Below, in pieces: positions 24,171 to 49,147 of a DNA stretch of 64,000 bases (position 1 is the stretch's first letter; each line of letters opens with the position of its first letter). The stretch is from Verrucomicrobium sp. (GTDB lineage Bacteria; Verrucomicrobiota; Verrucomicrobiia; Methylacidiphilales; UBA1321). The position numbers and the translations under genes were made by a program. The DNA lies in contig JAFIGT010000021.1 of assembly GCA_017849585.1 (NCBI GenBank), forward strand, positions 1 through 64,000, given 5' to 3'. The notes beneath the pieces are model-generated. The model was not told the origin of the DNA. It ran no database searches and saw only the letters and a program-made list of their open reading frames with translations.

Positions 24171-24280
24171 GATGAGGCGTCGCGCCGGGTTTTCACTTGG
24201 TGCGGCGCGTGATGGACGGGTGGTTTTCATTCTTCTTCCAACTGGATCAACGATCAGTAGTGGTTTCGACCGGTATACCT

Positions 24281-26641
24281 ATGAAAAAATGGATCAGTTT
24301 TGGTATTTGGGCAGGGCTGTTAATTCTGGCAGGGCAAGCCGCCGAGACGGGAACAATCGGTTATGTTGAGCCGGCGAAGACGGTAGGTTGGTGGAAGGTG
24401 GGAGACACCGTGAAGTTCAAATTGGGCGGAGGAAAGTTGCCAGAGGGTACTACTCAGGTCGAAGGTATCCTGACGAATGTAGAAGGGGATGAGATCACCC
24501 GGGTGAAGTCGGCCCGTGAGGAATTTGAAAATAACGGTTGGCAGTGGAAACCGACAACACCCGGTTATTATGAAGTTGAATTTGCCGCTCTGGCTGGTGA
24601 GAAGGGGGGCAAGACAACGTTGGTTCATCCCTATAACGTGCGCCGCCGCGATAGCGCGGGCAACGTGGTGACCAAGACGTTTACGCGCGAACGGCAGGGT
24701 TTTGTCGTCATGCCAACTCCTCTCGAAGCCAAGCCACCGACGGGCCAATACGGTTTCGATTATGAAAATAATCCTGAGGCGGTGCTGCTTTCCAAATTGA
24801 TGGGTTTTGATTTCGCGCGGGTGTTGGTGAACTGGGGTGATGCTGATCCGAAGCGGGCTCTCGAACCAGCCAAGGGCCAGTACAATTGGGATCGTCTGGA
24901 CCCGCATGTGGATCTCCTCTCGAAAGCGGGCTTGCAAATCATGGGGCAGATTTCCTTCACTCCAATCTGGGCGTCTCCATTCCCCGAAAAACGCAACGTG
25001 AATATTTGCGTGGTTGAAGCCACCGCCTATGCGCCGGTTAATATCGATGACTACGCACAGTTCGCCGAGGTGGTGGTGAATCGGTACAAGGACCGCATCA
25101 GTCATTGGGAAATCTGGAACGAGCCGAGCATTCCCGGCGGCAGTTGCTACTGGTCGGATACGACGGAGAATTACGCCAAGATTCTCGAAGCCGGTTACAA
25201 GGCGATCAAGCGCGCACAACCCGATGCGGTCGTTTCGCTCGGCGGTCTGGGCCCGCGCAAGCCGTATCATTCCTTTTACAATCGTCTACTGAAGATGGGC
25301 ATGGACAAGTACTGGGATGTGCTTTCTCTGCACGGAGCATGGAATTCGCCGGAAGATTACCGTGAGATTGATGCTCGTTACAAGCTGGCGCCCAAGCCGG
25401 CCATGTCGACGGAATGGCATGCGATTTTGCAGGGGAATATGCAGTCCGATCCGATTCTGGCGGAGACGGCACTTTCCTTCAAAATGATGAAGGATCTGTT
25501 TTACCAACATAAGGTGGGTGTGACGCGTGTGCTTGCTTTTGAGATGATCAATCTCACCGAAAAGGAAGCGCTGCCTTATGCGATCGAGAACAAATGGTTC
25601 ACACATGCGTCGGGATTTTTTCGGCATCATCCCCAGATTGAACCCCGGCAACCGGCGATGGTTTTGGCCCATTACATTGAAGTGGTTGGACGCAAGGCGA
25701 CCTATGTGAAAGAGTTCAAACTCTCCGACGAAACAACGGCGCTGCAATTCGATACGGCGCGCGGTCCGCTCATTATTTTCTGGGCTGAAACTGGCACCAT
25801 TCCGGCCAAGTCCATCAAGCCATTTCTACAGGCTGATTCACAGGTGCGTGACTGGGAAGGGCGGACAATGAAGGCTGGCGCTGAACTGGAAGCCAGGAAG
25901 ATCTATTACGTGCTGTCACCCAGTGCGGAGGCGCTGAGCAAGGCGGCTGTGGCGGATAAGCTCGTCTACATTCGCAAGGCGAACCGGTCGGCTCAGTCGC
26001 TGGTAAAGGCGTCGTATGTGAACGGCAAACTGTTTGCTGCGCCGGGTGGAGCTTTGACCGTTCCGGAAAACGCGTGGATTACGACGGACTGGAAGCTTGG
26101 AAAAATTCAGCAAGGTGCTCATGAAGAATCGTTCTCGGTGCGTGCCGCGGTGGGAGCCACCGAAGACGGTCTCGATGTCGTCGTGGAAGTGAAGGACAAA
26201 GCTCACGTTCAGAAAGAACCGCAACCGGCTTGGTGGGGCGGCGACAGCCTGCAGCTCGCCTTTGATTGCGAGGGTTCGGGTTTTGCTGGTGGCAATACGG
26301 AGTTTGTCTGTGCGCTGACTGACAGTGGTTCGGTAGTGTGGAAACTGACGGCGGCTGATCCTCGTGGCGATATTCCTGGCAAGTGGTCGCCGGCGAATGG
26401 ACCGGCGAAGTTTGCCGAGGCGAAAATCACGCATGAGGGAGACGTCACGTTGTATCAGCTGCGCTTCCCATGGGCAGAGTTGTATCCGATGGCGTATGAT
26501 GCGACCAAACCCATTCGGGTGTCTTTCGCGGTGAATAACAACAACGGAGCGGGTCGCGCGGAATACCTGGAATGGGGTAATGGTATCGTGAAGGACAAGG
26601 ATCCTGCCACGTACGGTCAATTGAACTTCATCGGAAAATAG
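24281..26641 (+). CDS. Secreted clan GH-A glycoside hydrolase with CBM9-like C-terminus (paralogue 2)
   Basis: 786 residues from the ATG at 24281, chosen because it starts a normal signal peptide (MKKWISFGIWAGLLILAGQA); the upstream extension does not look coding. Order: N-terminal beta domain (about 25-140, GYYEVEFAAL), GH39-like barrel (about 155-490) with HWEIWNEP (Glu281) and MSTEWHAI (Glu378), a linker domain, then the CBM9-like region (about 580-786; KAHVQKEPQPAWWGGD, FPWAELYP, FAVNNNNGAGR). It is closest to the next gene, 18 bp downstream, and more distant from the 5414 product. Substrate unknown; the operon is probably under IclR control. Confidence 0.83.
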   Translation: MKKWISFGIWAGLLILAGQAAETGTIGYVEPAKTVGWWKVGDTVKFKLGGGKLPEGTTQVEGILTNVEGDEITRVKSAREEFENNGWQWKPTTPGYYEVEFAALAGEKGGKTTLVHPYNVRRRDSAGNVVTKTFTRERQGFVVMPTPLEAKPPTGQYGFDYENNPEAVLLSKLMGFDFARVLVNWGDADPKRALEPAKGQYNWDRLDPHVDLLSKAGLQIMGQISFTPIWASPFPEKRNVNICVVEATAYAPVNIDDYAQFAEVVVNRYKDRISHWEIWNEPSIPGGSCYWSDTTENYAKILEAGYKAIKRAQPDAVVSLGGLGPRKPYHSFYNRLLKMGMDKYWDVLSLHGAWNSPEDYREIDARYKLAPKPAMSTEWHAILQGNMQSDPILAETALSFKMMKDLFYQHKVGVTRVLAFEMINLTEKEALPYAIENKWFTHASGFFRHHPQIEPRQPAMVLAHYIEVVGRKATYVKEFKLSDETTALQFDTARGPLIIFWAETGTIPAKSIKPFLQADSQVRDWEGRTMKAGAELEARKIYYVLSPSAEALSKAAVADKLVYIRKANRSAQSLVKASYVNGKLFAAPGGALTVPENAWITTDWKLGKIQQGAHEESFSVRAAVGATEDGLDVVVEVKDKAHVQKEPQPAWWGGDSLQLAFDCEGSGFAGGNTEFVCALTDSGSVVWKLTAADPRGDIPGKWSPANGPAKFAEAKITHEGDVTLYQLRFPWAELYPMAYDATKPIRVSFAVNNNNGAGRAEYLEWGNGIVKDKDPATYGQLNFIGK

Positions 26642-26659
26642 CCTCTATTTCTACCTCAT

Positions 26660-29056
26660 ATGATGAAAAAGACTCTTCTCATGGGCGGTCTGATCCTTTG
26701 TCTGCTTCAGAATGGAGCCGGAGCGGCAGAGCCCGCCGCCCCGGCTGCGGTGAAGCCTTATTATCTGCAGGCGGACACGCTCGGTTCTTGGTGGAAGTTG
26801 GGACAAACGGTAACTTATCGTAGCGGCGGCGGACCGATACCGGAAGATCTCGTGTCGGTTGTGGGAGCGATCACCAATGCGAACGACGATGCCGTGGCGC
26901 AGGTGATTGTGAAGCGCGAAGAGATGGAGACCAAAGGCTGGACGTGGTCTCCTAAGGAACCGGGCTTTTACGAGGTGGAATTTAGCTATCGCAATACCGC
27001 GGGTGAGAAGAAGGAACTGCCTCGCTATTTCGAAGTGAAGGCTCCGGGCGCGACGGAAAAGAAAATCTTCAAGCGTGAGCGTCAGGGTTTCGCGGTGCTG
27101 CCCGTCGGGTCGACGCCTCCGGCGAAAGCGGTGGGACAATTCGGTTTGGCCAACGATCATCCGACGCCGGAAGACATGCAGCTTGCGAAGTTCGTGGGCT
27201 TTGATCTGGTGCGCCTGACTGTGCCGTGGGGAGCGATGTTTACCAACTTAAAAGCGGCCATCGAGCCCGTGAAGGGCGAGTATCATTGGGAGCATCTCGA
27301 CAAATGTGTCGATCTCTACACGCAGGCTGGTTTTGTCATCAATGCGCAGTTTCTTTATACGCCAGTCTGGGCGTCGCCGTTCCCGGAGAAAGTGGACAAG
27401 ATCAATATCTGCGTGCGCGAGGCCAATGCCTATGCGCCCAAAGACATGAATGACTTCACGAACTTTGTCGCACTGACGGTGAATCGCTATAAAGATCGCA
27501 TTCGTCTGTGGGAGATCTGGAACGAGCCGAGCATTCCCGGCGGCAGTGTCTTCTGGTCGGATACGACGGAGAATTTCGTCGCGATGCTGAAGGCTGGTTC
27601 CCTGACGGTGAAAAAGAATCAACCCGAAGCGCAAGTGTGGATTGGAGGACTTGGGCCGCGTGCTCCCTATCATGCTTTCTACAACAAGGTGCTGCAGCAG
27701 GGCGGCGGCGACTACTTCGATGTGCTCTCACTGCACGGCAGCTATAACGTGCCGGCGGAGAAATTCCGCGCCATCGAGAAGTCGAATGGCGTCGCGCCGA
27801 AGCCTGCGATTCAGGGTGAATGGCATGCGATTCTGCAGGGGAATAATCAAAGCTCGCCGGTGCTTTCGGAGCAGGCGCTCTCGATGAAGATGATGAAGGA
27901 TCTGCTCTTCCAACTGAAGCATGGCGTGGGTCGCATCATCATGTTCGAACTGAAAAATCTCGTGGAAAAAGAAGTGCTCGGCTATGCGAGCCAGAACAAA
28001 TGGTTCGTTCACAGCTCCGGACTATTCCGACGTCAACCCTACGTCGAACCACGCCAACCGGCCGTTGTGCTGGCGAATTTCCTCGATACGGTGAATCGCA
28101 AGGCCACGTTTACTAAGGAACTAAAACTTGCGGACAACATCATTGCTCTGGCCCTGCAGACCAACAATGGTCCAGTGGTGGCTTTTTGGGGAGAGAAGGT
28201 TGCACCCTCAGTCAGCCTCGTGAAGCCTCTGGCAACGCCCGCGTCTGTCCTCAAGGATTGGGAAGGCAAGCCGATTGCCATGGATGGGAAGACACGCTTG
28301 GTTGAGAATCGCGTGTACTACCTCACGGCGGTCAATGCCGATGTGATCGCGAGAACGCCCGAGCAGGATCTGCTCATCTCGCCACGCGCGCAATCGCGCT
28401 CGGCCGCGAATGTGCCGAAGGGTACTTATGCGCGCGGTCCTCTCTTTACCTCGGTCGAGACTCCTGCCACGTTGCCGGAGTCGGGCTGGTTGAAGAATGA
28501 CTGGGCGTTGACCAAGCTGAACGCAGTGGCCCACGATGAGTCATTCTCGGTGCGTGCGGCCGTCGGCGCGAGCGATGCTGGATTGGATCTTGTTGTCGAA
28601 GTCAAAGACAAGACGCACGTGCAGAAGGAACCGCAACCGGCCTGGTGGAATGGTGACAGTTTACAACTGGCCATCGATTGTGAGGGTAGCGGCTTCTTTG
28701 GCGGTAACACCGAGTTCGTCTCTGCGTTGACAGAAAGCGGGCCGCAAATCTGGAAGCTGGTGGCTGCGGATCCGCGCGGTGATATTCCGCAAAAATGGTC
28801 GGCAGCGAATGGTCCGGCGAAATTTGTGGAGCAAAAGATTACGCGCGAGGGAGAAACGACGCGTTATCAAATTCGCATTCCTTGGTCGGAACTCTATCCG
28901 TTGGCCAACGATCCCACGAAGCCGCTACGAATCTCCTTCGCTGTGAATAATAACAACGGCTCGGGACGGGCAGAATATCTCGATTGGGGCGGAGGCATCA
29001 CGAAGGACAAAGATCCCGCCTTGTACGGTATCCTGCAGGCCTTTCCCGCGAAATAA
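26660..29056 (+). CDS. Secreted clan GH-A glycoside hydrolase with CBM9-like C-terminus (paralogue 3)
   Basis: 798 residues (ATG at 26660 or 26663). Signal peptide LLMGGLILCLLQNGAGAAE. It has the same domain order as paralogues 1 and 2: beta domain with GFYEVEFSY, barrel with LWEIWNEP (acid/base Glu289) and IQGEWHAIL (nucleophile candidate Glu387), and a CBM9-like C-terminus with KTHVQKEPQPAWWNGD and IPWSELYPL. The 18-bp gap and high similarity to the gene before it point to tandem duplication. A 14-bp perfect hairpin ends the operon. Whether the pair differs in substrate cannot be told from sequence. Confidence 0.83.
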   Translation: MMKKTLLMGGLILCLLQNGAGAAEPAAPAAVKPYYLQADTLGSWWKLGQTVTYRSGGGPIPEDLVSVVGAITNANDDAVAQVIVKREEMETKGWTWSPKEPGFYEVEFSYRNTAGEKKELPRYFEVKAPGATEKKIFKRERQGFAVLPVGSTPPAKAVGQFGLANDHPTPEDMQLAKFVGFDLVRLTVPWGAMFTNLKAAIEPVKGEYHWEHLDKCVDLYTQAGFVINAQFLYTPVWASPFPEKVDKINICVREANAYAPKDMNDFTNFVALTVNRYKDRIRLWEIWNEPSIPGGSVFWSDTTENFVAMLKAGSLTVKKNQPEAQVWIGGLGPRAPYHAFYNKVLQQGGGDYFDVLSLHGSYNVPAEKFRAIEKSNGVAPKPAIQGEWHAILQGNNQSSPVLSEQALSMKMMKDLLFQLKHGVGRIIMFELKNLVEKEVLGYASQNKWFVHSSGLFRRQPYVEPRQPAVVLANFLDTVNRKATFTKELKLADNIIALALQTNNGPVVAFWGEKVAPSVSLVKPLATPASVLKDWEGKPIAMDGKTRLVENRVYYLTAVNADVIARTPEQDLLISPRAQSRSAANVPKGTYARGPLFTSVETPATLPESGWLKNDWALTKLNAVAHDESFSVRAAVGASDAGLDLVVEVKDKTHVQKEPQPAWWNGDSLQLAIDCEGSGFFGGNTEFVSALTESGPQIWKLVAADPRGDIPQKWSAANGPAKFVEQKITREGETTRYQIRIPWSELYPLANDPTKPLRISFAVNNNNGSGRAEYLDWGGGITKDKDPALYGILQAFPAK

Positions 29057-31580: not shown

Positions 31581-32447
31581 TCAATGAAGTCCAAACTTTT
31601 CCCGGAAATCACCCGGGTTAAATCGAGTGGCTTTCTTAAATGCGCGGTAGAAATAAGAGAGGTCGTTGAAACCGCATGCAAAGCAGATTTCGGAGATAGT
31701 GCGGGTCGGTTCCGAGAGCAATTTGTCGCGGGCCACCTGCAGGCGGCGGGTGAGCAAATGTTGTCGGATGCTCTGGCCGCGCGTGCGCTGATAGAGGCGG
31801 CAGAGATGACTTTGGGTGACGCCGATCTCGCGCGCGAGGGCTGAGTAGTCTAATTCCCGGCCATAGTTTTCCTCGATGAGCGTATCGATGTAGGTGACGA
31901 TGCCGGCGTTACGGTTGGCCTTGAGCTTGCGGGCGCCGAGACGGATGATCAGCGCGAGAAGCTTGAGAAGCTCCATCTTGATCACCATCTGGTAATTGAA
32001 GCGGGCTTGTTTGAATTCCGATTCCAGGTGAGGAAAGATGGCGGCGATCTCACGATTGGAATCCAGAATGTAGAGCTGCTCCCGCTGGCGGCGCAACGTG
32101 TCATTCAAATGCGGCGCGAAAATCGAGAAGAAGGAGAAGTCGTTGTTCATCTCCCGCAGGCCGAAATCGAGCATCCTAGGCAGGAACAGGACATTGTAGA
32201 CGGTGACTGACTGCCCCGGTTTCAGGATGTAGGTCGTCTCATCCTCGGGATGAACCAGATAGAGCGTTCCCGGTGACACCGGATAGAGCGCGCCATTGAT
32301 GAGCATCTGGCATTTGCCTGAAACAATGTAGGTGATCTTCCAGAATTCCCGGCGGTGGGTGCGCTTGGAAATGCGCGATGTGTGTCGCACACGAAAGATA
32401 TTGAATGGAAAATCCGAGCTGAAACTGCGTGGTCGGCGAATCAACAT
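31581..32447 (-). CDS. AraC-family transcriptional regulator
   Basis: 288 residues from ATG 32447. The N-terminal cupin-like sensor (about 20-130) has HRREFWKITYIVSGKCQMLI, with GTLYLVHPEDETTY. The C-terminal double HTH has LDYSALAREIGVTQSHLCRLY and ISEICFACGFNDLSYFYRAFK. The frame is open to an ATG at 32495, but the first residues would then overlap the transcription-terminator hairpin of the upstream gene (32491-32515), so the shorter form is preferred. It is followed on the same strand by the 799-residue unknown protein, its likely target. The family normally activates in response to a sugar or its derivative. Confidence 0.86.
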   Translation of the reverse strand: MLIRRPRSFSSDFPFNIFRVRHTSRISKRTHRREFWKITYIVSGKCQMLINGALYPVSPGTLYLVHPEDETTYILKPGQSVTVYNVLFLPRMLDFGLREMNNDFSFFSIFAPHLNDTLRRQREQLYILDSNREIAAIFPHLESEFKQARFNYQMVIKMELLKLLALIIRLGARKLKANRNAGIVTYIDTLIEENYGRELDYSALAREIGVTQSHLCRLYQRTRGQSIRQHLLTRRLQVARDKLLSEPTRTISEICFACGFNDLSYFYRAFKKATRFNPGDFREKFGLH

Positions 32448-32490
32448 TCGAAGGGCATAGTAACAGCTGGAGGGCAGTGATCCAGTCCAG

Positions 32491-32515
32491 AACAAGGGAC
32501 CCGAAGGTCCCTGTT
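32491..32515 (-). terminator. UUCG-capped terminator of the Verru_Chthon operon
   Basis: In minus-strand RNA sense, AACAGGGACC, loop UUCG, GGUCCCUUGUU. The stem with the very stable UUCG tetraloop begins three bases after the stop codon of the 1223-residue gene. Confidence 0.7.
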
Positions 32516-32517
32516 AG

Positions 32518-35500
32518 CTACGGCGCGAACTGCGTATCCGACACCACCCGCCATTTGTAAAGCGTCTCCAACGTGGTGGTAGTTGCGGGTAGGGCGTAGT
32601 CCGGAATCGGCACGGCCGCGTTGTTCGGATCGATATAGCGCTCGAGCGTGGTGGCGCCGCGATATTCACCGCTGATCGTGCCGCGATCTTCATTCCACTG
32701 GGTCGGATCGCTATTGGAATTCTTGATCGATTGCGCGGTGAAATAGACCGTGTAGACGTTCGACTTCGTGGTCACGCGGGGATAGATGTTGGCATAGGGC
32801 CGCTCCCGCGTGTTGTCTCCCACCATGGCAAAGTCGGCTCCATACCAATCGGTCCGGGCCGCGCTATCAGAGGTCCAGTTTTTATTGCTAGGGACGAGGT
32901 AGATGTCGCAGATTTCCGAGGCTGATTTGAAAATGTCGTAGCCGTCAAATTTGGCTTTAAATTGGCGCAACGTACCATTGGCCTCATCGAGATTGAGCGG
33001 AAGACGAGCATTAGTATTTTGCACTACGGTTTTGTATCCAGCCGCAGCGCTTAGAGGAACGGCCGCGACTTTTTCACTCGCCAGTACCGAGCGCAAAGCA
33101 GTGCTGCGGGTGATGTAGGTGAAGGGCAGAATCTGGTAATTCAGATTGACCTTGCCTGCGGTGGAAAAGGGTTCGCTGATGGCGTACGGCTCGGCCACGG
33201 GCATCCAGAACAGATCGAGCATGAGATGATCCGGCGGATTTACCGCACCGGGGTGACCACTCGGGCCGGGGCGGAAGAGCAGGGTCTGCCATGGCTTGGT
33301 CCGCTTGACGCCAGTAGGGATCGAGCCGAGTATCCCCGCCGAGGGTACTTGCCGATTGGCAGAGAAGAAAGTTAAGTTTGCCATTCGTGTTTCAAACTGG
33401 CCGCTGTCGAAATAAGGGATGCCACCTGCGGGTCGGTAAAAATTTCCTTCATCGGCTTTATTGACGTACGGGCCATCCGGTTGATGGCCTACCCCGTTGT
33501 CCCAATCGCCGACAGGACCTCCGGGAATCATGACGCCATTGGTAACGGTGGGAGAAACGAGTTGTGGCTTGGCCGGACTACTGGTCGCGAAGTTAGTGAT
33601 CGAATCGGCGGAATTAGCGACCAACTTTCCATAGGGGGTGGCGAAGGTCATGGGGGTTCCAGATCCGATACGCAGACTGTAGGCCGCGCGGGTGACCCCT
33701 GTTGCCAAGTCGCTGTTTTTTGGATGAGGCGCAAAAGCGATTGAAGGTATATCCGAAACGGCGAGAAGGCGCGGATCTGCAAAGGCTCCGTTTAGTACCT
33801 GACTGATCAGCGTGTCATTGGTGGCATTAATGGAGTTTGAGTTCCACGTATTATTGAAGGAACAGCTTCCACGATCTACGGGAATTGAATCGGCCCACGA
33901 GCCTTTGAGAGGAATAAGCGCAGAAGTTCCAAATCGTCGTAAAACGGGATCAGTTGCGACCAACGGCACCTGCATCTTTTGTTTGGGAAAAGGTATATGA
34001 TAAGTTTGAATCAGATTTCCCGCAGCAGCGGCATTTCCGTTGTATAGCTCAATTGTCAAACTGGGTATACCTTGCAATTCAAGCTCCATGGTGCCGCCTG
34101 TGGGGAATTCGAGGATCTTGCTATAGAAGGGGAAATTCGTAACCGGATCTGGATTTACATTTTGCAAGGTGCGGTTCGACATCATGATCCGGAAGTCAAT
34201 AATGCCACCTCCAGGTCCAACGGAGGCATAACTGGAATAGGCACCTTTGGCTGCGGAAACAAAGATGGTTGCCGACGAGGTCATTTCCATTGGAATGGAA
34301 TTCAAAGTGAATTTGTCCAAGCCGCTTACCTTGATAGTGAAACCAGGATCCATGGCGGTATAGCCCATGGAGGGGGTGAAAAAGCTTAAGAGAAAGAAGC
34401 CTTGTACCGCCGTCGTATTGTCAGGCGGCATCTGTCCTCCGCTGGGTGCGCTGGAAGTATAGGTAGGCAGTTGAATGGATTCGACCGCAATACCGGATGT
34501 GGAGGTGGTGCTTGGAGGGACGGCCGGGACGGCGCCCTTACCCATGCCAATAAAAAGCATGGTGGCTTCCGTGATTCGAGGGAAGCGGCCTTGCCCTTGG
34601 GTGCCCCAGTCTGAGCGGATCGAGGGTGAGACTTGCCCACGTCCCGCAAAAGCTCCGGAGTTGGTACTGGCAAATGTCTTGATCGCGTAAGGCGCTGTAA
34701 CCGTTGCATCGCGCAGATTGATCGTGCGGATGTAGTCAAAGATATCGGTAAGGATCTGGCGTTGATCAGCACCATACTTGGTGCTGAAGTTGCTGGTAAA
34801 GCCGGGAACATTGGTCGTGGTGAGCGTATCGAGGTAGTCGAGAAGTTGCCGATTGCGACCAATATTGATATCCGTCGTAGAGCTCGTGTTATCGCTGCGC
34901 GTGAAATAGTATCTGTTGCCGCCTGCGGTGGAACAGAACGCAATCAGCTTGTCGACAAGGCTCCGATGGCTCGCATCGTTGATATCATGGATCGGCCAGA
35001 TCGCGACGCGTGGTTTACCGTAGAGATTGACTTCCGGGGCGCGACTGTGGGTGGTGAGGAAAAAGCGGGCGCTCTCCAGTTGCTGACGGGTGAGGCTGCT
35101 CGTATTACGAGTACTGTCAAATGCCAACTCGCCAACGGAGGTGTAGAGTCTTTCGGTTTTCTTCTGGATATAATTGGCGTTGGGATTGACTCCAGCTGCG
35201 GGGCTGACAGGCACGGGAACGGTTGCTTCGTCGGAACCTCCCTTGTCATAGCGGGGAGTCAACTTGAAGAGATTTGCGGAACTGAGGGTAGGAAAAACTT
35301 TTTTGAGCGTGGTCATGGCCGGATGCCCCGGATAACGCTGATATTCTCCTGCGGTCGGTTGATAGAGGGCTAAACCTGATCCGGCTTGGTCACGTTCATC
35401 GGCGTAATTAAATCGTGGTGTGTCCCAGAAGGTGCCGTGGGAAGCAGTGTTGATGTTGACTTTGCAGGTTTCGTCATCTGTCCAGAAGGCGATGCGTCCG

Positions 35501-36189
35501 ACAATCGGATTGGTCTGGCTGGCACCGGTCACGGTAACGACCTTGCCGCTGCCGCTGGGCGTGACGATTTCCCCGTTTTGCAAGACGTAGAGCCAGCGCA
35601 CTGGCATGGGGGCGGGCTGGTATTTGGGAAGAGCGATGTTGCTTTGAGCGCCGGGAGGGGCCGTCAGGGAGAAGCCTTCGATGGTGGAGATGAGATTGGG
35701 ATTTGTGGGGTCGCGAGGATCAAGGATCGGGAAAGAGAAGACAGCCGCGCCGGAGGAATTGGTCGTGGTGACAGGATAATTTAAATCGCACCAAATGGCG
35801 GGGGAACTACTCCACGTGGCTGGGGGGACGTCACCGGCCAAGTCAGTCGCCTTGGTCGTGGTCATCGATGCGGCGGAATAGAGGCGATAGGCGAGTTCCA
35901 GCGCGCCTCCATTACCGAAGCGGCGAATGACTCCCGGTTGCGAGGCCCAAGCATGGGTGGAGCCTTGAGTCGTGGCGTGATTGATCTGGGCCTGAACGAG
36001 GTTGACGGCGGTGTCGGCTAATTGCCGGGTCGAGGCGACGGTACGATAGTTGGAGGAAGTAATGCGTTCGCTGCCGGCCCTCATGACGAATCCCACCACC
36101 AGGGTGGTCACCAGTACAATGATGCCGAGAACAATCACGAGCGCCATGCCGCGTTGTTCGTGATGCCGCTTCAAAAATGGAGATGTCAT
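32518..36189 (-). CDS. Verru_Chthon cassette protein A (giant GspK/PilX-like)
   Basis: 1223 residues. It begins with an uncleaved- or prepilin-type N-terminus, EQRGMALVIVLGIIVLVTTLVVGF, which has Met-Ala rather than Phe and no Glu5, as in GspK/PilX. A large body follows, with DDETCKVNINTASHG (about residues 240-255), recalling the NINTA motif of GspK, and Ser/Thr/Pro-rich beta segments, ending in a short region (ETLYKWRVVSD). Family A of the Verru_Chthon set is known from Verrucomicrobia but uncharacterised. Its ATG overlaps the stop of protein D (ATGA). GspK is usually about 300-350 residues, so the body is greatly enlarged. Likely location is the cell envelope at the tip of a pseudopilus. 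Confidence 0.85.
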   Translation of the reverse strand: MTSPFLKRHHEQRGMALVIVLGIIVLVTTLVVGFVMRAGSERITSSNYRTVASTRQLADTAVNLVQAQINHATTQGSTHAWASQPGVIRRFGNGGALELAYRLYSAASMTTTKATDLAGDVPPATWSSSPAIWCDLNYPVTTTNSSGAAVFSFPILDPRDPTNPNLISTIEGFSLTAPPGAQSNIALPKYQPAPMPVRWLYVLQNGEIVTPSGSGKVVTVTGASQTNPIVGRIAFWTDDETCKVNINTASHGTFWDTPRFNYADERDQAGSGLALYQPTAGEYQRYPGHPAMTTLKKVFPTLSSANLFKLTPRYDKGGSDEATVPVPVSPAAGVNPNANYIQKKTERLYTSVGELAFDSTRNTSSLTRQQLESARFFLTTHSRAPEVNLYGKPRVAIWPIHDINDASHRSLVDKLIAFCSTAGGNRYYFTRSDNTSSTTDINIGRNRQLLDYLDTLTTTNVPGFTSNFSTKYGADQRQILTDIFDYIRTINLRDATVTAPYAIKTFASTNSGAFAGRGQVSPSIRSDWGTQGQGRFPRITEATMLFIGMGKGAVPAVPPSTTSTSGIAVESIQLPTYTSSAPSGGQMPPDNTTAVQGFFLLSFFTPSMGYTAMDPGFTIKVSGLDKFTLNSIPMEMTSSATIFVSAAKGAYSSYASVGPGGGIIDFRIMMSNRTLQNVNPDPVTNFPFYSKILEFPTGGTMELELQGIPSLTIELYNGNAAAAGNLIQTYHIPFPKQKMQVPLVATDPVLRRFGTSALIPLKGSWADSIPVDRGSCSFNNTWNSNSINATNDTLISQVLNGAFADPRLLAVSDIPSIAFAPHPKNSDLATGVTRAAYSLRIGSGTPMTFATPYGKLVANSADSITNFATSSPAKPQLVSPTVTNGVMIPGGPVGDWDNGVGHQPDGPYVNKADEGNFYRPAGGIPYFDSGQFETRMANLTFFSANRQVPSAGILGSIPTGVKRTKPWQTLLFRPGPSGHPGAVNPPDHLMLDLFWMPVAEPYAISEPFSTAGKVNLNYQILPFTYITRSTALRSVLASEKVAAVPLSAAAGYKTVVQNTNARLPLNLDEANGTLRQFKAKFDGYDIFKSASEICDIYLVPSNKNWTSDSAARTDWYGADFAMVGDNTRERPYANIYPRVTTKSNVYTVYFTAQSIKNSNSDPTQWNEDRGTISGEYRGATTLERYIDPNNAAVPIPDYALPATTTTLETLYKWRVVSDTQFAP

Positions 36190-36812
36190 GGCCGGTAAAT
36201 CTGGGCGCTGCCTGTATCGGGGTTCAGCTGAACGGTGGCGTAGTTATTGGGCAATGTCGTGGCGGTGGCGGAACGGTAATTGAGCACTGTAAAGAAAAGA
36301 TTGGCGCGTTCGGTAGTGTTGCTGGCGACCGGTTGGACGACTCCGTTCGGGCGAATGCGAAGGGTGGCGTAGGAGGCGTTGGCCAGCAGGGAGCCTGCTG
36401 TGGCGCTCATGGTCGCGGTGGGTAATTTGGAGAGAAAGGGTGAGTAGGCGTTATTTTCCGAAAGGGTGATATTTTTGGGAAAGGTCACGAGTCGATTGAT
36501 CGGAGCCAGTGTTCCCGTGGTGGTGTCTGGAGCCCAGAGTTGCACCGCGCTATAGCGTTGAGTGGATTGGACTGGTAGTTTGATCAGGCGAATTTCCACA
36601 GTGCGATTGCGCACGGAGGCCGCCTGTCGTGCCATGGCAAATTGATCCGCCAATAATTGGCCGGTCTGTGTAATGTTGTTATTTTCCAGTAATGAATTGG
36701 TGCCAGGAACAGCCGCCGCCATCAGGATGGTCATGAGGGCGATGACCACAAGCAATTCGGTGAGAGAGAATCCCCGTGTTCGGGGCAAAGGCATAGGAGA
36801 ATGCGAGTTCAT
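36186..36812 (-). CDS. Verru_Chthon cassette protein D (GspH/FimT-like pseudopilin)
   Basis: 208 residues. Prepilin site RG|FSLTELLVVIALMTILMAAAVP with Glu5, then LLADQFAMARQAASVRNRTVEIRLI, which is the signature of FimT/GspH minor pseudopilins (helix, then the surface-exposed N-R-T strand). The remainder is a beta domain ending SGSAQIYRP-type. It overlaps protein C by 4 bp upstream and protein A by 4 bp downstream, so all are translated together. Function is unknown; by analogy it is a minor subunit of a type II secretion- or pilus-like structure. Confidence 0.85.
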   Translation of the reverse strand: MNSHSPMPLPRTRGFSLTELLVVIALMTILMAAAVPGTNSLLENNNITQTGQLLADQFAMARQAASVRNRTVEIRLIKLPVQSTQRYSAVQLWAPDTTTGTLAPINRLVTFPKNITLSENNAYSPFLSKLPTATMSATAGSLLANASYATLRIRPNGVVQPVASNTTERANLFFTVLNYRSATATTLPNNYATVQLNPDTGSAQIYRP

Positions 36813-37759
36813 GGTGTGCTACTCCATTTGGATTCACGCAGTGTCACCGGGCAGGTCATAATGCGACAGGTGATCTTGGCCGCGGTCAGCGTATTTTGCA
36901 GAGCCGTCAGATCGCTCTGAAATTTACTGACGTCGATGAACTTGCCCGCGAGGGCGTTTTCAATGACGCTGGGAGGTTGGGAACCATTGGCCAGCCGGAT
37001 GGCAGAACTTTCATCAATCACCACGAGGGTGATCTGCACCATCGGCGGAAGTTGGGCGTATTGAATGCCTCCGCCTGTGCGGGAGTCGTAGCGATAGTTG
37101 GCGGTGAGTTGATTTCCTAAGCCGCTGGGATCGTCCTGATAAAAAGTGCGGGGCCATGCGATGAGTGCGATGACATTTTCGGCGATCGGCCATGCTAGGC
37201 TGTCGAGGCTTTGGGTCCAAGTGGCGTTGTTGTTTGTAAAGACCGTCAGATCTTCCGTCGGTTGCAGCGCCTGCATCAGGCGGTAACGCCAGCGATCTTG
37301 AGTGATGTGTGCGGGTCGATAATCCTTGTCGTTATCGAATTTCACGTAGTAGCCGCAGGCGTTGAGCAATCCGCGCGTTTGTTGATAAGTGGTGCTGCTG
37401 GAAAAAGCTTCGGGTGCCTGAAAATAGATGGAGTGACTTCCACCCGGTGCGTTCACGAGGAAGTGCAAATCCGACTTGCGGGTGTATCGGGTTGGCGCGT
37501 TATCGTCATCATAACCCCAGTAGGTATTGAGCGTTGCCTGGGCCAGTGTTTGGGTGATGATGTCGAATCCGCTGCGTCCTGCTTGGAAGGCGTCAATTTG
37601 GGCCGAGCCTCGCGTGACGGTCTTGGTTGCTTGCCCGGTGATACTTGCCACGATGGCCAGCATTAAGGCCAGCACTGCCATGCTGACCATCATTTCCACC
37701 AGAGTGAAGGCGCGGGTGGAGGGACCAGCTAAACTACCCTTGGCATGAACGGTGGTCAT
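36809..37759 (-). CDS. Verru_Chthon cassette protein C (GspJ/PilW-like pseudopilin)
   Basis: 316 residues. The N-terminus RA|FTLVEMMVSMAVLALMLAIVA is a prepilin signal with Ala in place of Gly at the cleavage position. GspJ/PilW-like features are the long helix continuing into TKTVTRGSAQIDAFQAGRSGFD and a large beta domain (HFLVNAPGGSHSIYFQAPEA). The last residues (CRIMTCPVTLRESKW) carry two Cys. The start codon lies 8 bp after the stop of protein B. Assignment as C is by size, order and N-terminal style. Confidence 0.82.
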   Translation of the reverse strand: MTTVHAKGSLAGPSTRAFTLVEMMVSMAVLALMLAIVASITGQATKTVTRGSAQIDAFQAGRSGFDIITQTLAQATLNTYWGYDDDNAPTRYTRKSDLHFLVNAPGGSHSIYFQAPEAFSSSTTYQQTRGLLNACGYYVKFDNDKDYRPAHITQDRWRYRLMQALQPTEDLTVFTNNNATWTQSLDSLAWPIAENVIALIAWPRTFYQDDPSGLGNQLTANYRYDSRTGGGIQYAQLPPMVQITLVVIDESSAIRLANGSQPPSVIENALAGKFIDVSKFQSDLTALQNTLTAAKITCRIMTCPVTLRESKWSSTP

Positions 37760-37767
37760 AGCAACGG

Positions 37768-38220
37768 TTATTGTCCTGCGGTTAAAAGAGTGAAGACCTT
37801 GCTTTTCTGGGCGGCGGTTGGGGCAGTTGCGGGATACTTCAGGGTGACCTTGACCAGTTTGGCGCTGGTATTAAAGGAAGTAGCGGCACCAGCGATGCTT
37901 GGATCCGTGACGGAGAAGGTCGCGATAAAGTACGCATCGGTAGAGGAGGCTGAGGCCACACGGATCCCTTGCGGGGTATAGTACTTGGGTTGACTTGCGA
38001 AAGTGGGGAGAGATGTCAGAGAGATTTGTTGCAGATCCGAGCGAATCTGGCGGGCAATACCAGCTTCGCCTGTTTGTACCATGGCCTGTTGGACGGTGCT
38101 AAGGCCGACTGGAAGCAATCCGAGTACACCCAACATGGCGAATGAAATTAATCCAAGGGCCATGGTTACTTCTACCATGCTGAAGCCACGATTCTGGCAG
38201 CAAGTGAGGGGCTTTTTCAT
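37768..38220 (-). CDS. Verru_Chthon cassette protein B (GspI/PilV-like pseudopilin)
   Basis: 150 residues, first gene of the cassette. Prepilin site NRG|FSMVEVTMALGLISFAMLGVLGLLPVG, with Glu5 and the long hydrophobic helix, matching PilV/GspI. Then QQAMVQTGEAGIARQIRSDLQQ and a short beta domain. Processing by a prepilin peptidase and membrane insertion are expected; no peptidase is in this window. Two weak matches to the 20-bp operator-like element lie upstream (38387-38406 and 38478-38497) but are not convincing alone. Confidence 0.84.
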   Translation of the reverse strand: MKKPLTCCQNRGFSMVEVTMALGLISFAMLGVLGLLPVGLSTVQQAMVQTGEAGIARQIRSDLQQISLTSLPTFASQPKYYTPQGIRVASASSTDAYFIATFSVTDPSIAGAATSFNTSAKLVKVTLKYPATAPTAAQKSKVFTLLTAGQ

Positions 38221-38785: not shown

Positions 38786-41700
38786 CTAGGCGTGACGACG
38801 CTTGAAGATGCGGTGGCGCAAGCGCCAGAGGATCCAGAGGGTGATAAGGAGTCCGCCGATGATTGTGGAGGGTTCGGGCACAATCGGTACAACGCGACCA
38901 TCGGCCAGAATCATGGCGTAGTAGAGGCCGGGTGAGTATCCGACGGGGTTGAGGAATCGAATTTGGCCAACTTCGCCGGGGGTGAGGCCGCTCGAGTTGG
39001 TGCCAAAGTAGAGGTAATCGTTGTCGGCACCGGGGTCATAGTTGGTGATCGTGAGTATGTTCGATCCCCAATTGATGGCGGAGCTGTCGGCGAAGTAAAT
39101 GGCGCTGCCCAACGCTGCGGCCATGTCGATGGTGGAATTTCCGTTGAGCGTGAGGGTGCCGACGGTGTCGCTGTGTCCGTTGATGGCAAAGGTGGTGCCA
39201 GTGGACATGGAGACGTTGGTCGTGTTGCTCAGGACGTTGCTGGCGCCGAGCATCAGGGTGCCCTGGGTGATGTTGGTGTCGCCGGTATAGGTGTTGGTGC
39301 CGCTGAGGACCATGGTGCCGGTGCCGGTCTTGGTGACGCCGCCGGTACCGGAAATGGATCCGGCGTAAGTGGTGGAGGTGTTGTTGCCGCCAGTGGTGAG
39401 GATGGTGGAGCCGTTGAGGACGACGTTGCCACCCGCAGCGCCGCCTCCGCTGAGTGAGCCGATGGTTTCGCTGGAGCTGAGAACCAGACGGGCTCCGCTG
39501 ACATTGGCGAGGATGACGTCGCTGCTGTTGCCGATGGCGTTTCCGTTGCTGGCGATGAGGGTGCCGCCATTGATGGTGGTGGTGCCGGAGTAGGTATTGT
39601 TTCCGGTGAGAATGACGGTGCCGGTACCTTCCTTGGTGAAGTCGCCGCTGCCGATCATGTTGCCGGTTAAGGTGACGGTGTTGCTTCCGGCGGTATTAAT
39701 CGCGCCACCGCCCGAATCGAGAGTGACTGTGCCGGAGAGGGAGAAGGTTCCATTGGCAACCAGTGTGCCGCTGCTGAAGGTGAGGGCGTTACCGGTGGCT
39801 CCGAGATTGCGGCTGCCGCTGACGGCGACATCGCCGCCATTGATGTAGGTGCCGCCCGCATACGAATTCGTGGCGGAGAGGGTGAGGGTACCAGTGCCGG
39901 TCTTGACGAGGGTGGTGCCAGCGCCGTCGATGGTGCCACTGATGCGGGTATTGCCGGTGCCGTCGACGTAGAGGTCGTTGCTGTTGGTGGTGAAATTACC
40001 GGTGAGGTGAAGGGTGCCGGCTCCATTCTGTGTGATCGCCAGCGAGTTGGAGAGAACGATGGCGGAGGCAATCGTATTGCTGGAGGTGGAGGACATGGCA
40101 ATGGTGGCGCTACCAGTGCCGGAGACGTCGAAGCGAAGGGTATTTGCTGTGATCGTATAGTTTTCACCGCTGTAGGTGCTGTTGAAAATGATGTGACCGA
40201 CGGTACGGTTATTGGAAAGGGTAACGGTCTTGGAAGAGGAGGTAGTGGCGGGTGTTCCGGCCGCATCTCGGGCACCAAAGACGACCACTTGATCGGCTCC
40301 ATTGGGATAGACGGTGGCGTCGCTGCCATCGGCATTGTTCCAGCGGTTGCCTTGAGTATTCCAGGTATTGGTGCCGGAATCCCAGTATTTGGCGGAAGCG
40401 ATGATGCCGGGAACGATCTCACCCGTGGCGGCGATTTGGTAGGCACCGGTGCCGTAACCGTCGAAGTTGATGGTGGCGAGAATGGCGCTGCTGACGGTCG
40501 TTGAACTGACTAGTTGTGAGCCGGAGCCTCCAGTGAGGCTGCCGGTCCAGTTGGCGATGGTGAGGACATTGCTCGTCGTGCTGGTGGACGTCATGCTGGC
40601 GAAGGTGAAGACGGAGTCGGCATCAAGTCCGCCCATGTCGATCGTGGAACTGGAGGCGAGGGTGAAGGCTCCGGCGGTGCCATTGTGTCCATTTGTGGCG
40701 AGGGTACCGCCATTGAGGATAACGGAGGTGCTGCTGGAGATGACGTTGTCGGAGTCGAGAGCGAGGGTCCCCGCGCCGCTCTTGGTAATACTGGAGGAGC
40801 CGGTGATACTGCCGCCGTAGGTAGTGGTTGTACCGGTGGCAGTGTTAATGCTGCCGCCGGTGCCGCTGACGACAATGCCACGGTTGGAGTCGAGGGTGGT
40901 CGTGCCAGAGATGGCGAGCGTGCCGCCGTCGTTGAGGGTGATGTTATTGGAAGTGGGAGAGCCGGGCGCGGCACCGAGGTTTTGATCGCCAGTAATGGCG
41001 AGGGTGGCACCGTTGACCGTGGTGTTGCCGGTATAAGTGTTGTTACCGCTGAGAGTCATGCGACCGGAGCCGCTGACGGTCAGGTTGCCGGTGCCGGCTA
41101 CGATACCGCCATAAGTGATGGCCGCGGAAGTGGTGGTCAGGGTGACGGTGCCGCCGCCGGAATTGAGGGTGATGCCGCGGTCGGAGTCGAGGGTAAAGGC
41201 GTTGGCGGTTTGGAGAGTGCCACCGTCGAAGGTGAGTTTGTCGGTGATGGGGGAGGAGGGGGCCGCGCCGAGGCTGGTATCGGAGGAGACCACGAGTGTG
41301 CCGCCGTTGATGTGGGTGGCGCCAGTATAGGTATTGCTGTTGGAGAGGACGAGCGTTCCGGCGCCGACCTTGGTCAGATTGGCGGTGCCGTTGACCACGC
41401 CGGTTGCGGAGAGGGTGGTGCCGGTGGCTGCGCCGATGGTCGAATTGGTGGCCATGGTGATGATGCCACTGATCGTGTTATTGCCGCCGGTGTTGTTGAT
41501 GACACCGTTGCCGCCTGCGCCGGAGCCATTGATGGTGAAGGATTCGCCGACGGTCAGTGCGCTGGATGCGGTACCGATCTGGACCGTGGCACCGTCATTG
41601 ACGGTTGTGCGCACTGAGGTGCTGGCGGTGCCGAGGGCGTTGTTGTTTTGCACCGCGAGGATGCCGGAGTTGACAGAGACCGCGCCGTTGAAGCTATTGC

Positions 41701-44700
41701 TGCCGGAAAGGACGAGGGTGCCGGGACCATCCTTGCTCATGCCGCTGGTGCCGGAGAGAACCCCGCTCATGGTGAGGGTGCCGCTGGTGACGTTGATGCC
41801 GGGTTCAAGCGACATGGAGACGGCGCCCGTGATGATGTTGCTGCCGCTGCTCTGGATGACACCGCTGTTGGTGGATCCGTAGTTGACGCCCACGCCTGCA
41901 ATGGTGAGGGCTTCGTTGGTGACGGTGATGTTGTTGGAGAGGGCCAGTGAGGCTCCATTGGCCACTGTGGTGCCGCTGGTGACCGAGCCGAGGGCGGTAT
42001 TGCTCGTGATGGCGAGGACTCCACCGCTGACGGTCGTGGCACCGCCATAGGTATTCGCACCGGAGAGGGTGGTGGTGCCAGTGCCGGTCTTGACGAGCCC
42101 GGAGGTGGTGCCGGAAACGATACCAGAGATGATGGTGTTGCCGACGCCGCTAATCGTGAGTGTATTGTTATTGCCGTTGATGTTTCCGCTGAGCGTGAGG
42201 TTGGTGGCATTGCCGATGGTGGCGCCGCCGGCGAGAGTGATGTTGCCGAGCCAAGTGTTGTTGCCAGCTTCGTTATTGAGCGCTCCAGCGCCACCGATGC
42301 CCGAGCCGCTGAGGGTCAGTGTCTTGGTATTGGCGGCAGTGATGCTTGTAGCGTTGCTGAGGGTGAGCATGGCACCGTTGGCGACGTTGACGGTTCCGGT
42401 GCCGAGAGCATTCGAAGCCGCCATGATCAGTTCACCGGCGCTAACGGTGGTGGTGCCGCCGTAGTTGCTGCTGTTGTTGGTCAACACCATGGTGCCGGTG
42501 CCGGTCTTGATCAGTCCGCCAGTGGAACCGGTAATAAGGCCGTCAAAACTGGTAGAGGCATTGGTGCCGCCGGTGGTGAGAACGAAGGAGTTGAGGTTGA
42601 CGGTTCCTCCGGTAGTTCCGCCACCGGTGAGGGAACCGATGGTTTCGCTGCTGCTGAGGGCGAGAGTGGCTCCGGAGACATTGGCGATGGTGACGGCGCT
42701 GGTATCGCCAATGGCGTTGGTACTGCTGGCGACGAGCTTGCCGGCATTGATGTTGGTGGCGCCGGAGTAGGTGTTGTTTCCGCCGAGAATCAAGGTGCCG
42801 GCGCCAGTCTTGGAAAGAGTTCCGGTGCCAATATAATTACCGCTGGAAGTGAGCGTTGTCCCGGTGGCGGTGTTAATGGTGCCGCCACCTGCGTTGAGGA
42901 CGATGTTGCCGGAGAGAGAGAAACTGGCGTTAGTGGCAAGGGTACCGTTACTGAAACTGATGGTGTGGCCGGTGGCACCAAGATTTCTATCCGCCGTGAC
43001 GGCGACCGTGCCGCCGTTGATGTTGTTGCCGCCAGAATAGGAACTGGTGCCGGAAAGGGTAAGCGTGCCAGTGCCAGTCTTGGTGAGGGAGGACGTGCTG
43101 GTGCTGATGTTGCCGCTGATGACGGTGTTTCCAGATCCGTCGACGGTGATGTTCTTGTTATTGGTGGTGATGGGGCCGGAGAGGGTGAGAAGGCCGGTGC
43201 CGTTCTGGCTGACGACGAGGGAGGAGGAAAGTGCGAGCGGTACGGCAATGAGATTGCTCGCTGTGGAGGTCATATTGATGTAAGCGCTGTTGGTGCTGGA
43301 GGCGCTGAAGATCAGTGTGCCGCTGCCGGTGAGGGTGTAATTTTCGGTGGCCTGCGTGCTGTTGAACACCGCGTAGCCGAGTGTTTGGTTGGCGCTCAGG
43401 GTGACGGTCTTGGGTGTCGTCGTGGCGCTATTGGTGCCCGCGGAACTGATCTTGCCGAAGACGGCCAGAGCGTCGGTGGCGTTGGGCGTGCCGGTCACGG
43501 AAGTTCCGGCTCCATTGTTCCAGGCATTGGCGGTGGCCCAGTTGGTTTGACTGTTATTCCAGTAGTAACCATTGGCCACGACGGAGGGGACGACTTCGCC
43601 AGTAGCCAAGCGGGTGGCACCCACCGCGTACCCTTCGAACTGAATTTGGCTGAGGAGGGCGCTGTTGGTGTTGGTGAGGAAGAGCTGGCTACCGCTGCCG
43701 CCCGCGAGACTGCCAGTCCAGTTGTCGATGAAGAGGATCGAGCTGGTGCTGGTGGGCGTGTTGGCGCTGGTAAGGGTGAACTGGCTGGTGAGCCCACCGA
43801 AATCGATCGTGGAACTGCTCGAGAGAGTGAAGGTGCCGACGGTGTCGGTGAAGCCATTCACGGCGAGCGTGCCACCGTTCAGAATGAGGGAAGAGCTATT
43901 GGCGAGGACGTTATTGTTGCCGAGGGCGATGGTGCCGTTATTAATGGTGGTGGCGCCCGTATAGGTATTGTTGCCGGAAAGGACTAGAGTGCCGGTGCCG
44001 GTCTTGGTCACGCCCCCGGTGCCAGAGATGACGCCGCCGAAAGTAGTGGAGGTATTGGTGCCGCCGGTGGTGAGGGTGTTGCCGTTGAGATTCACCGCGC
44101 CGCCCGTCGTGCCGCCACCGGAGAGGGCGCCGATGGTTTCACTGGCGCTGAGGACTAGGGTGGCGCCTGCGACGTTGGCGATGTTGACGCTGCCGGTGTT
44201 GCTGATGCTGGCCCCGGTATTGATAATGAGTGTACCCGCGTTGATATTCGTGTCGCCGGTATAGCTGTTCGTGCTGGTGAGCAGCAGGGTGCCGTCGCCT
44301 GTTTTCGTCAGGTTGCCGGTCCCGGCCACTGCGCCGTTGTAGGTGGTGGTGGTTCCGGAGCTGATCTGAATCGTGCCACTCATCGTATCGAGCAGGATGC
44401 CGCGATTGGAGTTGAGCACGGTGTTGGCCGTGACGGCGAGCGTGCCGCCGTTGAAGGTGAGATATCCGGGAGTCGCCGCGCCTGGGGCGGTGCCGAGGCC
44501 GGAGTCGGCGCTGATTTGCAGGATGCCACCGGAAATGGTGGTGGCCCCTGCGTAGGTGTTTACTCCGGAGAAGATGATCGTTCCGTCACCGGTCTTGTCG
44601 ATTCCGCTCAGGGTGTTGCCGGAAATCACTCCGGTGATGTTGAGCGTGGACCCCGCATCGGCGGCCATGCGAACGGGAGCCGCCACGGTGCTGGAGTTGG

Positions 44701-48205: not shown

Positions 48206-49147
48206 TCAAGCGCGCATCAGCCCGCTGCCATGGCATAATGAAGGCGTGGTGCGGGTTTCATTGAGACAGCGGTCGACGCCGCAGATGTGGCCGACGAGCC
48301 ATTTGCTGAGAATATTTTTGAGATCCATGACCAGGCTCAGCTTGGCTCCCTCCTTCTCGTATTTGTGGCGCCATTGGACGTAGGTCGCGATGAGGGCCGC
48401 GTGCGCCTTTTTATTTTTTTCGAGGGCCGGACACTGACGCTCGGCCATGATGCGTTCTTCCGCGCTGAAATGAATCTGAACATATTCTCCAAGAAAATTG
48501 AGCATCCGATCCACCTCATCACGGGCTTTGCCTTCGCGCGCGGCGGTCTCGAGCTGGTTTACCATGTCGATCAGCTGGCGGTGTTGCTGATCCACCGTCT
48601 CGACTCCAGTCGCCATGGTGGCAGCTTCGTAGAGGAGGGGGTTTTCGGCAGGATGCCGTGAGGGACCCGCCGTGGTGGTTGCCCCGATATGACGGTGGAT
48701 CGAATGGATGTCGTGATTGGCCGAAGCGGCGTGGCAGAGTGCTTCGGCGATATCTTGCTGATGAATGATGATGCCTTGGATATTGCTTTCGATGCGGTGG
48801 CCGACCGCAATGGCCGATTCGCTGATCTCAATAGAATTTTTGATCACAGCACTCGTCTGCTCCGAGGCTTGGTGACACCGTTCGGCGATGGATTTGATTT
48901 CGTTCGCGACGACCATAAAAGTCGCACCGCGTTCTCCCGCATGAGCCGCTTCGACGCCGGCATTGATGGCCAATATTTTAGTACGCAATCCAATTTCGCC
49001 GAGTTCGCGGCTGATACCCGAGATCGAGTGGCTCGCTTCGATGAGTTTTCGGATGGCTTCCGCCATGGCTTTTCCGGAGACTTCGATCTCCTCAATCGCC
49101 TTGTTCATTTCGTCGTTCGCTTGCAGTCCATCTTGTAAGCTTTTCAT
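48206..49147 (-). CDS. Soluble chemoreceptor-type protein fused to bacteriohemerythrin
   Basis: 313 residues, no membrane helix. Residues 1-145 are a short methyl-accepting-protein signalling coiled coil with a hairpin tip, RTKILAINAGVEAAHAGERG, then VVANEI. Residues about 175-300 are bacteriohemerythrin: VDQQHRQL (His189), HFSAEE (His226, Glu230), KKAHA (His249) and GHICGVDRC (His287, Asp292). The ligand expected four residues before His249 is Asn245, so one of the usual seven di-iron ligands is missing. It should sense oxygen or a related gas and signal to CheA/CheW. A 10-bp inverted repeat (49181-49237) lies upstream. Confidence 0.85.
   Translation of the reverse strand: MKSLQDGLQANDEMNKAIEEIEVSGKAMAEAIRKLIEASHSISGISRELGEIGLRTKILAINAGVEAAHAGERGATFMVVANEIKSIAERCHQASEQTSAVIKNSIEISESAIAVGHRIESNIQGIIIHQQDIAEALCHAASANHDIHSIHRHIGATTTAGPSRHPAENPLLYEAATMATGVETVDQQHRQLIDMVNQLETAAREGKARDEVDRMLNFLGEYVQIHFSAEERIMAERQCPALEKNKKAHAALIATYVQWRHKYEKEGAKLSLVMDLKNILSKWLVGHICGVDRCLNETRTTPSLCHGSGLMRA

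Follow-up and report, generated by a model that had tools for sequence, protein, structure and literature searches.

Minor pseudopilins of the type II secretion system (T2SS) of Pseudomonas aeruginosa build a tip to which a critical part in recognizing substrates has been ascribed (PMC6211770). Three clusters of minor pilins with PilY1 share one common machine in Myxococcus (PMC7541494), so that the pili of this organism provide a precedent for the arrangement of several tips on one machine, and proteins with a GlyGly-CTERM or MYXO-CTERM have been reported to need the T2SS to cross the outer membrane or to reach the surface (PMC11980579). How the T2SS chooses its substrates and by which route PEP-CTERM proteins pass the outer membrane are open questions in the field. 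Here, a cassette of four coupled genes, the products of which carry the NCBIfam names Verru_Chthon cassette proteins B, C, D and A, has been analysed on a stretch of 64,000 nucleotides from Verrucomicrobium sp. (GCA_017849585.1, contig JAFIGT010000021.1, positions 1 to 64,000; hereafter the window). With a confidence slightly better than even, the four products are taken to form a pseudopilus tip homologous to GspH-I-J-K, which is exchangeable on a shared T2SS and bears a client-specific head in its giant subunit A.

Gene layout and prepilin signals

The cassette, located entirely on the minus strand, starts with the GspI/PilV-like minor pseudopilin B (37768-38220, 150 aa; TIGR02598 E 4.8e-15) and continues with the GspJ/PilW-like C (36809-37759, 316 aa; TIGR02599 E 5.2e-71), the GspH/FimT-like D (36186-36812, 208 aa; TIGR02596 E 1.8e-30) and the giant GspK-like subunit A (32518-36189, 1223 aa; TIGR02600 E 2e-274 over the full length). 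Proteins A, B and D score above the cut-offs of their Verru_Chthon models in NCBIfam and C slightly under (239.8 versus 256.5 bits for TIGR02599). The open reading frame (ORF) coordinates confirm positions and spacing as given by an initial annotation made from the sequence, with 8 bp between B and C and overlaps of 4 bp each between C and D and between D and A. The adjacency of the coupled genes is kept in most of the 80 loci fetched for comparison. As that annotation had also noted, A belongs to a known family without an assigned function (TIGR02600); the Verru_Chthon name is absent from the open-access literature searched, within which no earlier functional assignment was found.

Glutamate at mature position 5 (Glu5) is present in all homologues from these loci with a readable motif, 66/66 for B, 63/63 for C and 66/66 for D, and in 1/69 homologues of A only, in line with the Glu5 pattern initially described for the four window proteins. 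A prepilin signal without Glu5, as present in A, is a trait of GspK.

Individual loci deviate from the common layout. A tandem pair of A genes accompanies a single B-C-D set at L172:9739-18232, and in four marine Verrucomicrobiales loci (L182, L185, L186, L189) C is found on the opposite strand about 4.5 kb from A, so that the operon is split there. A cassette of verrucomicrobial type on a contig labelled Betaproteobacteria (L211, CAJCIA010000108.1) probably stems from a mislabelled metagenome bin.

Predicted folds and sequence kinship

The relationship of A and C to pseudopilins is most apparent from their predicted structures. Upon structure alignment, the AlphaFold model of C (59 homologues, predicted local distance difference test (pLDDT) 91.4) matches XcpW (5vtm_W, Z 11.4), the Thermus pilin TTHA1219 (Z 11.0), EpsJ (Z 10.8) and GspJ (3ci0_J, Z 10.6), with the next, unrelated row at Z 4.5, and Foldseek retrieves EpsJ at E 8e-4. 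As XcpW and TTHA1219 tie, the fold of C does not separate T2SS from type IV pilus forms. The model of A (residues 25-1223, 63 homologues, pLDDT 84.4, predicted template modelling score 0.88) aligns to GspK of enterotoxigenic Escherichia coli (3ci0_K) with Z 10.6 and 3.5 Å over 253/280 residues; the alignment extends over model residues 19-1199 and the next, unrelated row has Z 3.8. Judged from these models, C has the GspJ fold and A is a GspK core with a long insertion, so that the initially proposed check, whether the predicted folds resemble pseudopilins, turns out positive for both proteins on which it was run.

The assignments of B to GspI and of D to GspH, on the other hand, are based on profile matches. 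In profile-profile comparisons with T2SS pseudopilins from the same phylum, the best partner of B is the Verrucomicrobiota GspI (97.1% over 62 columns) and that of C is GspJ (97%), while A matches GspK (94%), GspI weakly (40%) and GspJ not (2%). D matches the GspH model TIGR01708 over residues 13-98 (E 2.5e-10) with 40.6 bits, under the curated cut-off of 80. The profile-profile alignments span the N-terminal helix and the stretch directly after it, and the sequence match of A to GspK is equally confined to the N-terminal ~80 residues (2.6e-5); its 23.9 bits compare with the 130 bits of the GspK equivalog model NF037980, a cut-off which most true GspKs of Verrucomicrobiota also miss. Searches of the PDB sequences with two profiles of A did not find pilin relatives, and the profiles of B, C and D found at best N-terminal pilin helices, which were not used as evidence. 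As the kinship to pilins is visible in the sequence at the N-termini only, the sequence by itself would leave the claim open. Considering the predicted fold, A is a homologue of GspK and should function in a similar way; as it misses the family cut-off, and in view of its genomic context, it is not filed as a GspK equivalog.

Conserved core and variable insertion of A

Two motifs, 'DE..K/R-x-N/D-x-N' near residue 100 and 'GK/R-x-N/D-x-N' near residue 200-230, characterize GspK, and one or both are present in many GspKs of Verrucomicrobiota. A carries both, as DDETCKVNINTA and GKVNLNY, at residues 242-249 and 1012-1017. The segment NINTA, initially taken as a sign of GspK, is present within 'CKVNINTA' (residues 242-249); alone it is no proof of kinship, which is supplied by the fold.

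The distance between the motifs is 128 residues in the one Verrucomicrobiota GspK in which the search pattern found both, compared with a median of 818 in A (752-1003; 62 sequences) and about 545-610 in the A proteins of short cassettes, two of which values are distorted by the search pattern. The main growth of A, which is about fourfold enlarged versus GspK, has therefore occurred between the two N-x-N motifs and amounts to ~690 residues. Inside this insertion, residues about 525-875 (33565-34617, minus strand), modelled partly as a beta-sandwich, are the most variable part of the protein with a mean column entropy of 2.4-2.9 bits (63 homologues), versus 1.1-1.9 bits in the flanking core blocks which hold the motifs, with the lowest values (1.1-1.25) around the motifs themselves. 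Fold matches of the insertion to Ig/C2-like domains are weak (Z 3-3.8). A conserved core combined with a variable head would be expected of a recognition or display device.

Copies, gene order and secretion machines

The genome from which the window derives (4.79 Mb, 96% complete) harbours ten dispersed cassettes. Four belong to the long type; the other six are of a shorter, paralogous type and score under the Verru_Chthon family cut-offs. The shorter cassettes are ordered D-B-C-A, which equals gspH-I-J-K if D is H, B is I, C is J and A is K. D is present in nine of the ten; the cassette at C2:97-102 kb is without it. Beyond the cassettes, among 94 N_methyl matches in this genome, dozens more prepilin-like proteins of ~210-280 aa are scattered.

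No T2SS core or motor gene is located beside any of the ten cassettes, nor were type IV pilus core genes recognized there by inspection, with PilY1 not searched by profile. A single complete T2SS operon (E-F-G-H-I-J-K-L-M-D), which includes a canonical HIJK set of its own, is situated on contig C7 at 27-46 kb (L054, L055, L068) and adjoins PilB/PilT/PilC-like genes. Separate machines are encoded on C43 (secretin and PilMN-like genes), on C25 (Tad) and on C3 (pilus-like); they were assigned from sequence and size and not all by profile. A match on C12 to PF03934 was rejected as GspK, as the ORF does not encode a prepilin protein. Counting cassettes against T2SS genes, as initially proposed, gives ten cassettes and one T2SS operon, a ratio which suggests that the tips may be exchangeable adapters, each for another surface or secreted protein. 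The relative G078 (one contig) adds to this, with 7 full-length C-family matches and 11 partial ones, which may include ordinary GspJ-like proteins, versus only two GspF-type platform proteins. G218 has 17 full-length C matches versus six GspF-type proteins.

Solitary giants of 1059-1400 aa, which combine an N-terminal prepilin helix similar to that of A/GspK with a conserved C-terminus (FGR[KRN]F...RWL), were observed at L217:4610-18143 (genome G232), L222:5434-9180, L223:6865-10365 and L224:5189-8368 with no B, C or D adjoining. Three of them lie side by side in G232, in which no GspK match was found. The giants of G232 were first taken for cassettes in a genome without T2SS, an interpretation which was rejected: as they are solitary, have only the N-terminus in common with A, lack both N-x-N motifs and end with FGRxF...RWL, giants of this type represent another family.

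Neighbouring genes and the candidate client

Located 565 bp upstream of B on the same strand, a 2546-aa PATR repeat protein (38786-46426, minus strand; PF12951 E 4.7e-89 and no other Pfam family; TIGR02601) is the candidate client of the window cassette. It possesses a signal peptide and a C-terminus composed of PEP, a transmembrane segment and basic residues, ending ...VPEPSTIIGGLLITLWILWRLRHRIFKRRHA, and has no autotransporter barrel. Promoters and terminators sought between this gene and the cassette occur at chance level. In view of the GlyGly-CTERM and MYXO-CTERM precedent a PEP-CTERM-like client would be natural, and an exosortase is present in 8/8 cassette genomes tested. TIGR02597, considered as another possible client, has no match in the window's own genome in a search without a positive control.

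Among 84 loci (the 80 fetched, the window and three further loci of its genome), a PATR and/or PEP-CTERM-like gene is found directly upstream on the same strand in 12/52 cases versus 40/624 background genes (6%; p=2.4e-4), an enrichment which stems from cassettes that start with A (8/22, p=7e-5), although these p-values are optimistic as the loci are related and the PEP-CTERM test is a pattern. This over-representation makes the proposal of the PATR giant as a client plausible. At most cassettes, and in particular at those starting with B, other neighbours are found, so that the giant is a sensible candidate in the window but not the client of all cassettes. In a Pfam tally of adjacent versus distant genes, LacI regulators count 6 versus at most 1, besides glycoside hydrolases (GH) and sugar transporters. 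The neighbours of the cassettes in the window's own genome include a GH36 protein, an alginate-lyase/LamG protein, a GH42-like protein, a CBM9 protein, a rhamnose mutarotase and AraC/LacI regulators.

Downstream of A by 22 bp, an AraC-type regulator gene (31581-32495, minus strand; PF12833 2.3e-21 and PF02311 9.5e-11) is probably part of the same operon. The window carries several glycosidases; near the cassette on the other strand, two tandem paralogous glycosidase-like proteins of ~800 aa (24197-29056) have weak GH42/GH10/GH39 matches. A small chemoreceptor-like protein at 48206-49147 combines an MCP signalling domain with a hemerythrin domain.

Proposed function and alternative explanations

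In the proposed mechanism, the prepilin peptidase would trim all four subunits, which would assemble together in the inner membrane in the manner of GspHIJK, with B, C and A forming a ternary tip like GspI-J-K and D connecting this tip to the major pseudopilin. The tip would prime a pseudopilus and form its cap, while the drive would come from a shared platform encoded elsewhere, most likely the single T2SS on C7, and the enlarged head of A at the extreme end of the tip would select, push out or display the client of the respective cassette, be it an adjacent PATR/PEP-CTERM-like surface protein or enzymes for polysaccharide degradation. Many exchangeable tips would thereby be available to one machine, and a role of the cassette in export is postulated. 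The more far-reaching statement that one T2SS with at least ten exchangeable GspHIJK tips and client-specific GspK heads constitutes the outer-membrane route of giant PEP-CTERM/PATR proteins in Verrucomicrobiota is unlikely to hold as such and is put forward as speculation.

Several observations speak against the reading as a T2SS tip with a client. Upon removal of the first 45 residues, which form the N-terminal helix, the profile signal is almost gone, and a Foldseek search with the model of A does not find GspK, with all hits unrelated (best E 0.38), probably because long insertions interrupt the GspK core. Among 289 Verrucomicrobiota genomes surveyed, the 8 with A above the family cut-off all have GspK and GspD matches and A is missing from six genomes of the same order which possess neither GspD nor GspK, a co-occurrence which is weak evidence as the T2SS is common across the phylum. 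The PATR giant matches no PEP-CTERM model (TIGR02595/PF07589, E 0.1 / 1) and is recognized by pattern only; upstream enrichment is not significant for B-first cassettes, the order of the window (4/30, p=0.14); the neighbours of most cassettes are not PATR/PEP-CTERM-like; and the plain Pfam tally has PATR 9 times adjacent versus 4 times distant, of 95. Finally, the genome also possesses a type IV pilus platform.

Such a platform would serve if the cassette were instead a type IVa pilus tip (FimU-PilV-PilW-PilX-like) with A as a giant PilX-type adhesin, which primes and caps the pilus and unites the roles of PilX and PilY1 with no secretion involved. This is rather unlikely, even though B also matches PilV (4.4e-4 in the profile search), C is equally close to the Thermus pilin and to GspJ/XcpW, PilX like A is without Glu5, PilB/PilT/PilC-like and PilMN-like genes with secretins are found on C7 and C43, and Myxococcus has several minor-pilin clusters per pilus machine (PMC7541494). 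The solitary giants of G232, where GspK was not found, could be added to this side, but without B, C and D and with a different C-terminus they are not cassettes. Gene order and motifs agree with gspHIJK, and A aligns over nearly the whole GspK chain, than which PilX is much shorter.

Possible, if doubtful, is that A itself is the payload, its variable insertion being a carbohydrate-binding or adhesive head on a short pseudopilus and the cassettes being substrate-specific attachment organs of polysaccharide-degradation loci which export no client. The hypervariable insertion with its beta-sandwich would fit, and so would the many glycoside hydrolases, LacI/AraC regulators and sugar transporters encoded nearby; the fold matches of the insertion with Z under 4, the lack of a recognized ligand-binding family in it and the upstream enrichment of PATR/PEP-CTERM-like genes, which suggests a partner, would not. 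It is very improbable that the cassettes merely reflect redundant minor pseudopilins multiplied by duplication with little specific function. High copy number is compatible with such an expansion, and for another pseudopilin, the 67 homologues present in a single verrucomicrobial genome have been attributed to gene transfer and duplication (PMC13274419), but the ORFs are intact, the tight gene order is conserved across 80 loci and variability is localized in A next to a conserved core.

With fold matches for A and C, profile matches for B and D and the gspH-I-J-K order of some paralogues, the initial interpretation as a GspI/J/H/K-like tip with a giant K-type subunit is right in substance, now with fold evidence from models; taken together with the proposed export role and client, the initial interpretation is partly supported. 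If the cassettes are such tips, families so far only called 'Verru_Chthon cassette proteins' gain a named structural role, and the many tip sets, in which K-type heads vary on a conserved core, would make it possible to test in a natural setting whether secretion or display is governed by the tip.

Comparison with described systems

The common denominators of the cassette and the T2SS tip GspH-I-J-K (XcpUVWX) are four prepilin-type subunits, a K subunit without Glu5, the folds of A and C, the motifs and, in some cassettes, the gene order. The cassette differs by the size of A (1223 aa; 850-1250 in short paralogues) versus about 300-400 aa for GspK, by many copies per genome without an adjacent T2SS core gene, and by scores under every curated GspH/I/J/K cut-off. 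Among the orthologous Verru_Chthon families A-D (TIGR02600, 02598, 02599, 02596), themselves without an assigned function, the window cassette is one representative.

Clusters 1-3 of Myxococcus equally provide several interchangeable minor-pilin tip sets per machine, each with a large partner (PMC7541494). There, three sets serve a type IV pilus and the large partner is the separate PilY1, whereas here ten or more cassettes enlarge the K-type subunit itself. GlyGly- and MYXO-CTERM proteins, which need the T2SS to cross the outer membrane (PMC11980579), resemble the candidate clients as C-terminally sorted surface proteins. For PEP-CTERM-like proteins a T2SS dependence is putative, and the sorting enzyme here would be an exosortase. 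The PulG-like pseudopilins of Verruconatronum have likewise been multiplied in polysaccharide-degradation clusters of Verrucomicrobiota, with one raised on alginate (PMC13274419), yet these are single proteins as compared to the four-gene tips with a giant GspK of the present cassettes.

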